In this document: in pieces, positions 60,901-63,940 of the stretch | Numbering within the stretch: the stretch's first letter is position 1 | Layout of the letters: each line of letters opens with the position of its first letter | Origin: Tridacna crocea | Lineage: Eukaryota; Mollusca; Bivalvia; Cardiida; Cardiidae | NCBI GenBank assembly: GCA_943736015.1 | Contig: OX031073.1 | Span: 23,029,210-23,093,209 of the forward strand | DNA: 64,000 nt | Reading direction: 5' to 3' | Position numbers and translations under genes: made by a program | The notes under the pieces: model-generated | Database searches by the model: none | What the model saw: the letters and a program-made list of their open reading frames with translations, nothing else | What the model was told of the DNA's origin: nothing

Positions 60901-63900
60901 AAATTTGTTTTGGGAAGTGTAGAAAACACTGTGGGAAAAGGAGAAAATGCTGGTTACCAGCATTTTCTCCTTTTCCTACAGTGTTTTCAAAAGGCTTCCT
61001 TCTCAGGGGCATCAAAAGTAGGAATTGTGTGGTAATGGGTTAACTCTTTACTGCATGAAAGCACTTGCAGATGACACAATAAATGAAACTCAAAAATCAA
61101 AATTTGTTTCCAGCAGGGTAGAAAAACATTGTGGGAAAAGGAGAAAATGCTGCTATAGCACACAATGTTTTCAAAAAGCTTCTAATTCAGGCTCGTAAAA
61201 ACCAGGGATTGCTTGGTAAAGGGTTAAGGATCATCAGTAATATTCATTGCTTATCTAAATCATGTGGTAGAATAATCCTCTGACAACCAGAAAATGTTTC
61301 AACCCATATCAACCTGCACATGTTAGTTTTTACACAAGTTTAAAATGGGTTGATACTTTAGGCAGATGCATTTAAGGTAGTGGACCAGTAATATTTCTAG
61401 TGCATCATGGCATAAAATTTCTTGACAGTTGATAAAGACAGATTTATACAGATATAATATTTTTGCACATTTTTAACGGACCAGAAATTCCTTTGATATC
61501 TATCTTGAAATCAATTGTTGATAGTTTTGTTAGTTTTCAGAAAAGGGAAGTAATTATCATCTCAATTTGTAAAGTAATATCGTGGTTTCAGATTTATAAA
61601 TGATAATTCTTTGAAGGTGGTTAAGTGAGAGTAGTACAATAATACTCATTTTTAATCTTAGCAAATTTTGTAGAATAATATTACAGTGGAAACAGCTGTT
61701 TTCTATTACGGGTCCACTATGTTAACCCCCTTTACACAGAGCATGGCTCATATCAGATATACACAACACAATCCAATCCTTGTTCTCCATCCACAGACCT
61801 ACCATCTCAAATAACAAGCGGACCAATTTTTCAGACTCTCCATGCCACTTTGAAGTGAGAGCTGCCGACGAAATGTTAAAGAAGGTGGTCCCGCATTCAG
61901 TTGCCACAGCTTTAGCCAATAGTGTCTTTCCTGTGCCTGGAGGGCCTACCATCAGCACCCCCTAGTGAGAAAGGAGACAAACAAAGGACTGCAACTCTTT
62001 GTATGATATAAACATATACATGTGATGGTTAGCCATTGGTTCTTGTACTTGAAATTTTTGTGCAACCACTTTAACACTTTACCACACTATCTCGTCTTTT
62101 AATGACCATGAGGAGGAAGCCCTTTGTAAACGTGGGGAAAAGGAGAAAATACTAGTAACCAGCATTTTCTTCCCATTCAAGAGAAAGATTTTTCATCCAT
62201 TTAGCCATTTTCTCCTTTTCCCATGGTTTCTGCCCATCCCTCAACAATTTGTCGTCTGCAAATGCTTTTGATCTAATAAAGTCTGTAAATTTATTGTGTG
62301 GTATAAAGTAACAAGAAGGCCAAGATGGCCCTGGATCGCTCACCTGAATCTTTGAGAGGACCGTAGGCAATTTTTTTTATGTATTGAAACATTGGAAACA
62401 AAATCATTATTTTTCAGAGCTATTTTCAAAAGGTCACCTGTAAAAGTCAGTTCAAAATCTGACCATCAGTCTCAGAAAAGAAGAGATTTTAAGAATTTCT
62501 TAATTTCAGTGTAGTGGAAGTAGCCCCCATTCACCAGAGCCATGTTTCTTGAAGGATCAAAATTTCGCGAACAAGTTTTGGAAAGGGTCATTCAAGGAAC
62601 ATTTCTGTGAAATTATTTTAAAATCTGACCAGCTGTTTCAGAGAAGAAGAAACTTCAAGAATTTCTTCATGTCCTTATGGTGCAAGTAGCCCCCATTCAT
62701 CAGAGCCATGTTTCTTGTTGGAACAAAATTTCGCAAACAATTTTTGGAAAGGGTCACCCAAGGACCATTTCTGTGAAATTATTATCAAATCTGATCAGTT
62801 TCGACAGAAGAAGAATTTTTAAGAAGCCCCCATTCACCAGAGCCATGTTTCTTGACGGATCAAAATTTCGTGAACAGTTTTTGAAAAGGGTCACCCAAAG
62901 AACATCCCTGTGAAATTATTCTAAAACCTGACCAGCCGTTTCAGAGAAGAAGAATATTAAGAATTTTTTCATTTCTGTATTGTGCAAGTAGCCCCCATTC
63001 ACCAGAGCCATGTTTCTGGACCGATCAAAATTTCGCGAACAAGTTTTGAAAAGGGTCACCCAAGGCACATCTCTGTAAAACTATTTTCAAATCTTTCCAG
63101 CGGTTTCAGAGAAGCTTTTTAAAGAATTTCTTAGAAAATTCCATTTGGTTGCCATGGCAATCAGAGTTTTGAATGGAATCAAATTCTGTGAACGCATTTT
63201 AAAGAGGACATCCCAAGGAACATTCCAGCCAAGTTCAGTAAAAATTGGCCCAGCGGTTTAGGAGGAGTTGATGTTTAAAGAATTGTTGATGACGCACGAA
63301 GGACAGCAGTTGATCCTAAAAGCTTCCCTTGAGCATGTTGTGCTCAGGTGAGCTAATAAAAAAAGGGCCTTTTTAACCCTTTCCCAAACAAACCCTAGTT
63401 TTTAGGGTCTGCAGTAAAAGTCTTTTGAAAACACTGTGGGAAAAGGAGAAATTGCTCATAACGAGCAATTTCTCCTTTTCCCACAGTGTTTTCTACCCTT
63501 TTTGAGAACTTTCTGCCATTTTCTCAAAATCTAAAATTGTCATCTGCATACTTTTTCAGTTTGGAAGAGTCAAAAATTTGTCATTTGGTAAAGGGTTAAA
63601 GGATTGCATCATTTCAAAATTTCAAATACAAACAAACCAATGGCTACCACTGTGTTACATTTCCCCATCCGCATTCTGCAAACAAAACAAAACAAACAAA
63701 CAAGTGGTTAGGGTGCATATACTTTTCTGCTGGCATATTAGCTATGTTTGCTAGTATAACATAGGCTCTTTTGTCTCTTACCATTTCAAAGAGTAGGCGG
63801 ATTAATTTTTCAGATTCTCCGCGATACTTTGATGTTAGACTTGAAGAGGAAACATTGAAGAAAGTAGTTCCGCACTCAGTGGCTACAGCTTTAGCCAACA

Positions 63901-63940: not shown

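Follow-up and report, generated by a model that had tools for sequence, protein, structure and literature searches.

The locus examined here raises the question of why a katanin p60 gene should carry two versions of the same internal exon and whether both of them serve the gene. Within the window (the whole 64,000-nt stretch of Tridacna crocea DNA that was analyzed), exon e1 (positions 63782..63940, minus strand) and exon e2 (61803..61961, minus strand) are each 159 nt long and encode the same 53-residue segment of the AAA core, from Walker A to pore loop 1, with the canonical pore loop sequence KYRG in e1 and the variant KWHG in e2. They are separated by a repeat-rich intron of 1820 nt (61962..63781, minus strand). 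Both exons are in frame and in phase 0/0 with GT/AG splice sites, and they share 44 of 53 residues and 120 of 159 nucleotides, differing at 9 residues and 39 bases. In e1 and e2 alike, the TAG of the acceptor forms an in-frame codon directly 5' of the exon, and the exon ends in ATG, followed by the GT of the donor. On the coordinates, strand, length, phase, splice sites, residue identity, and intron size, the first-pass annotation of this DNA proved accurate. When each exon peptide was compared with the window by tblastn, it retrieved the other exon (E values of 1.0e-28 and 6.8e-29); no third copy was found in the window, the remaining matches being at chance level (E values of at least 2.8). 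According to the criteria for mutually exclusive exons in a section of PMC3228551 (neighboring homologous exons of approximately equal length, with the same reading-frame phase and compatible splice sites), e1 and e2 can be regarded as a standard candidate pair.

The remainder of the gene, as far as the window shows it, is present in a single version. After an intron of 5633 nt downstream of e2 (56170..61802, minus strand), the shared exons C (56043..56169), D (54018..54152), E (52666..52792), and F (51710..51908), all on the minus strand, are each found once in the window and complete one katanin p60 C terminus. Exon C encodes the Walker B region (FIDEID, by our assignment) and a 14-residue stretch where we take pore loop 2 to lie; exon D encodes a 20-residue stretch presumed to cover the sensor 1/arginine-finger region; exon E encodes the AAA lid; and the last exon, F, encodes a Vps4_C-type end with the stop codon TAA. 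Either e1 or e2 can be joined in phase 0 to exon C, which is followed by D, E, and F, and the visible part of the gene, from either alternative exon through the stop codon, encodes 248 residues. Upstream of e1, the window holds only the last 60 nt of its 5' intron (63941..64000, minus strand), and the 5' exons common to both forms would fall beyond position 64000, as would the MIT domain. The spliced partial products with e1 and with e2 both contain AAA, AAA_lid_3, and Vps4_C domains above the Pfam cut-offs. The e2 form, for which the whole product was searched against PDB, matched KATNAL1 over 247 residues (E value of 1.8e-123), and its best chains were those of KATNAL1 (6b5c) and KATNA1 (5zql and 5zqm). 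With the e1 peptide alone, katanin chains were also the best matches. With the e2 peptide alone, two-domain CDC48/VCP chains came out on top by total score (3.8e-28, versus 4.2e-26 for KATNAL1), but the single CDC48-type domains shown scored about 45 to 50 bits versus 92 bits for KATNAL1. The gene thus combines the AAA core, the lid, and the Vps4_C-type C terminus with closest similarity to KATNA1 and KATNAL1, the features of KATNA1/KATNAL1-type katanin p60, and its earlier assignment to katanin p60 is upheld by the domains of both spliced forms and by the closest chains of the e2 form. Searches for a second copy of C, D, E, or F gave no significant match within the window; only F had a weak match, 20 residues long (57010-57069; 35%, E value of 0.11), which is inside an interspersed-repeat block. 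A nested second gene was rejected on the grounds that the window has no second set of downstream exons.

Repeats are abundant throughout the window. A palindromic interspersed element of approximately 230 bp, which can form a hairpin with a perfect stem of 31 bp (242 nt, -98.4 kcal/mol), is found at 63364-63605 and in 84 other blocks; its full and partial relatives, merged into 85 blocks (34 of them at least 150 bp long), cover 12,425 of the 64,000 bases. A tandem array at 46510-48522 consists of 13.9 copies of a 145-bp unit (90% matches). Short arrays of related 166-bp units occur within the intron between e1 and e2 (62454-62798) and, in the opposite orientation, at 19536-20172; they are 87% alike over 345 bases. 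Another array, at 9507-10345, comprises 32.6 copies of a 26-bp unit (75% matches) and is open in all three minus-strand frames (133 to 199 amino acids), but is probably not coding. The tRNA and Rfam searches found nothing.

Where do the two versions differ? The first-pass annotation had placed its emphasis on Walker A, which was off the mark: this motif (GPPGTGKT) is identical in e1 and e2, and the changes peculiar to e2 are in residues 30 to 40, including pore loop 1. Compared with the KATNAL1 and KATNA1 chains, which we take to be the human proteins, e1 is identical at 49 and 47 of the 53 residues, respectively, and e2 at 47 residues in either comparison. Exon e1 departs from both chains at C3, I5, S34, and I47, and these changes are mild, except perhaps C3. 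Exon e2 departs from both at I30, A33, A34, W39, and H40, all within 11 residues (post hoc P of 0.003), so that AA takes the place of SS at residues 33 and 34, just before pore loop 1. Residues 38 to 41 of the exon correspond to the K-X1-X2-G of pore loop 1, and the X-R-G motif is present in e1 (YRG) and absent in e2 (WHG). The Trp at X1 of e2 is aromatic, as in MEI-1 (KWRG) and Vps4 (KWMG), whereas X2 is Arg in all three katanin chains compared (KYRG in KATNA1 and KATNAL1, KWRG in MEI-1). A His residue at X2 was found neither in KATNA1, KATNAL1, MEI-1, or Vps4 nor in any of the 83 AAA loci fetched, which comprise 3 viral loci (from 22 pattern matches) and the best 80 of at least 267 loci confirmed from at least 589 genome stretches, all 80 with prokaryote record titles. 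The second pore-loop position in these 83 loci is occupied by Val (37), Ile (25), Tyr (11), Leu (7), Ala (2), or Met (1), never by Arg or His, and since the Arg typical of katanin itself is likewise absent, the tally suggests only that His is unusual.

The similarity between the e1 and e2 sites is confined to the exons. At the DNA level, the match begins inside the exon and stops 3 nt beyond its end (the GTA of both donors); compared in register, the flanks agree at only 9 of 38 bases before the exon and 11 of 60 bases after it. The other strong matches between the two neighborhoods are intronic and are located in or adjoining the interspersed element that recurs across the window. Because the exons alone are related, the flanks are not, and the remaining strong matches are tied to this element, the duplication is an old one, after which the introns turned over and the coding part was kept. 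That the pair is an assembly artefact or an uncollapsed haplotype, as might be suspected in such a repeat-rich region, is extremely improbable, given that 39 of the 159 exon bases differ and the flanks are unrelated. The unrelated flanks led us to reject an assembly duplicate or a recent copy, and they contradict the assembly duplication that had been raised as an objection when the pair was first described.

The nucleotide differences also bear the mark of selection on the protein, 26 of the 39 being at third codon positions. The dN/dS analysis that the first-pass annotation had proposed was run on the pair, e1 versus e2, and gave dN of 0.12 to 0.14 and dS of 1.2 to 1.5 (0.124 and 1.49 by NG86, 0.143 and 1.23 by LWL85, and 0.116 and 1.38 by maximum likelihood). 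When the exons were allowed to drift neutrally to 39 differences, the mean was 24 residue changes (with a minimum of 17 starting from e1 and 15 from e2), and none of 3000 runs from e1, and likewise none from e2, had 9 or fewer; this result led us to reject the idea that one exon has decayed neutrally throughout the divergence. With drift to 20 differences, 9 or fewer residue changes were seen in 49 (e1) and 59 (e2) of 3000 runs. A one-branch test considered only the residue changes of each exon's own, i.e., those differing from both katanin chains (four in e1, five in e2), without a stop codon. With 20 differences placed on one exon, 0 of 5000 runs were as conservative, for each exon; with 15 differences, the counts were 2 (e1) and 10 (e2) of 5000; and with 10 differences, they were 123 and 541 of 5000. 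Constraint on each exon individually therefore seems likely, depending on how the differences divide between the two branches.

Constraint can, however, linger as a record of the past, and e2 (or e1) might have gone out of use only recently, as a former alternative or as what is left of a vanished tandem copy of the gene, with a single exon spliced today. That e2 carries, at a conserved site, five residues absent from both the KATNA1 and KATNAL1 chains would fit such a history. Nevertheless, we consider it improbable. Neither exon has a frameshift, a stop codon, or a broken splice site, and the donors of e1 and e2 rank 0.995 and 0.993 among the minus-strand GT sites by a scoring matrix. Between e1 and C, no further exon that a lost copy might have left behind gave a significant match. 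The pyrimidine tract of e2 is the richer one, with a pyrimidine fraction near the acceptor of 0.86 versus 0.64 for e1; as a clue to exon choice this is weak, because exon C, needed by both forms, has a fraction of only 0.50.

The most probable explanation, in our judgment, is that this KATNA1/KATNAL1-type katanin p60 gene underwent an old tandem exon duplication and that both copies were kept as working alternatives, used one at a time. The observed grounds are the intact frames and splice sites, the protein-level constraint on the pair, the unrelated flanks, and the one visible set of downstream exons. The earlier proposal of interchangeable, mutually exclusive exons is well supported as far as it concerns the presence, in a katanin p60 gene, of two preserved exons that can stand in for each other, on the strength of the frames, splice sites, and constraint; the use of e1 or e2, one per transcript, is the most economical reading of the sequence. 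Each transcript would take either e1 or e2 and join it to exon C, and the segments encoded by the shared exons (Walker B, the remainder of the AAA core, and the C terminus) would stay constant. The e1 product should be an ordinary katanin with the pore loop KYRG, and the e2 product, with the same Walker A and the pore loop KWHG, would form a hexamer whose motor is unchanged and whose hold on the tubulin tail is less basic and more aromatic.

What such an exchange might do can be judged from work on related proteins. A passage of PMC8369831 attributes to the X-R-G motif a positive surface that recognizes and remodels tubulin; Walker A and Walker B are loosely identified there with pore loops 1 and 2. 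PMC12076492 describes pore loops 1 and 2 as carrying positive charge and winding around the tail of tubulin. Passages of PMC7018516 place the aromatic residue of pore loop 1 between substrate side chains in AAA proteins and state that in katanin and spastin it is pore loop 2, not pore loop 1, that contacts the tail glutamates and confers substrate specificity. With Walker A identical in both forms, the switch would alter the grip and not the binding of the nucleotide. Because pore loop 2 should, at its assumed place, fall in shared exon C, much of the specificity would be the same in both forms. By homology, the e2 hexamer would be expected to keep its ATPase activity and to change the staircase formed by pore loop 1; its weaker charge and larger aromatic residue should alter the grip on the acidic tubulin tail, with a direction and size not predictable from sequence. 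Wherever e2 is used, whether in particular cells or under particular conditions, the efficiency of severing or the preference for substrates should then shift. A bolder version, which is conceivable but on balance doubtful, is that one gene yields two severing enzymes that share an ATPase and read tubulin differently: the e2 hexamer would favor tubulin tails that carry other modifications or less glutamylation, or else a substrate other than tubulin; its six pore histidines might make it sensitive to pH, and mixed e1/e2 hexamers would have graded properties.

The mechanisms of exclusion listed in the portion of PMC5740500 that deals with them are steric hindrance, U2/U12 incompatibility, frame loss, and competing RNA pairing. 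As 159 is a multiple of three, transcripts with both exons or with neither keep the frame, so exclusivity is not forced and frame loss cannot enforce it; this form of control was rejected. Steric exclusion was rejected as a likely mechanism in view of the 1820 nt between e1 and e2, as was U2/U12 incompatibility, no U12 signature having been seen at either exon. The same properties (double inclusion and double skipping in frame, an intron with no steric block, and no U12 sites) are what would be expected if both exons were real and the choice between them were not strictly exclusive, resulting either from alternative promoters or in a mixture with double-inclusion and double-skipping transcripts as silent or dominant-negative forms. 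The likelihood of this arrangement appears small, since, by general AAA biochemistry, the AAA fold should not survive a duplicated P-loop segment or the absence of Walker A. If, as we favor, each transcript includes just one of the exons, the choice would be left to intron pairing or to regulatory proteins. The introns between e1 and e2 and between e2 and C contain 29 perfect complementary runs of at least 14 nt; as a weak control, one of the introns was shuffled 10 times by mononucleotide, which gave 0 or 1. All 12 runs examined by eye carry the sequence of the abundant interspersed element, and for this reason they are not read as docking sites, although e2 could be looped out by them.

If both exons are used, they would provide a natural matched pair of katanins, nine residues apart in one exon, five of them in or ahead of pore loop 1, and with it a clean test of the part played by pore loop 1 in reading the tubulin code. 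Splicing, in addition to the existence of separate genes such as KATNA1 and KATNAL1, could then set severing specificity.

Dynein, like katanin, is an AAA+ protein. The dynein heavy chain of Schistosoma serves as a test case for mutually exclusive exons in the relevant section of PMC3228551. Within the katanin family, a passage of PMC8369831 describes several isoforms of another member, KATNAL2, in mouse, and one butterfly paper reports duplicated exons with nonsense mutations in p80 katanin, a different gene. Among the open-access papers listed, judged mostly by titles and the openings of abstracts, none was seen to deal with alternative exons for the AAA core of katanin p60, and the available portion of PMC5740500, which deals with human mutually exclusive exons, has 0 mentions of katanin or KATNA. 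The "new regulatory layer" announced by the first-pass annotation is nonetheless too strong a term for the class, given the P-loop exons of scallop myosin and the duplicated exon of oyster alternative oxidase (AOX). The scallop muscle myosin heavy chain, as described in part of PMC3912159, has alternative exon clusters 2 and 3, and cluster 2 encodes the P-loop, the following helix, and loop 1. As in the gene described here, the alternative exons belong to a bivalve motor protein and differ mainly outside the nucleotide motif, in loop 1; unlike katanin, myosin is not an AAA ATPase, its alternative transcripts are known, and its loop 1 affects ADP release and not a substrate pore. The AOX gene of Crassostrea virginica has, according to an excerpt of PMC5589949, a duplicated exon 10. 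It resembles the katanin case in the tandem duplication, in the conservation of one copy and the change of the other around key functional sites, and in the same size of the products; it differs in that the last exon of a metabolic enzyme is involved and its stress-dependent use was demonstrated by expression data. Exons 6a and 6e of coq-2, found in helminths, annelids, and molluscs (134 nt each in Caenorhabditis elegans, in the corresponding passage of PMC7434440), are likewise internal exons of equal length that swap part of the enzyme core; in coq-2 the swap changes the product made, the enzyme is a prenyltransferase, and the function was shown genetically. In the gene's own family of KATNA1, KATNAL1, and MEI-1, e1 is canonical at pore loop 1, and the chains of all three keep the Arg residue of X-R-G that e2 is without. 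The class of paired alternative exons is thus known, and katanin p60 may be a new member of it.
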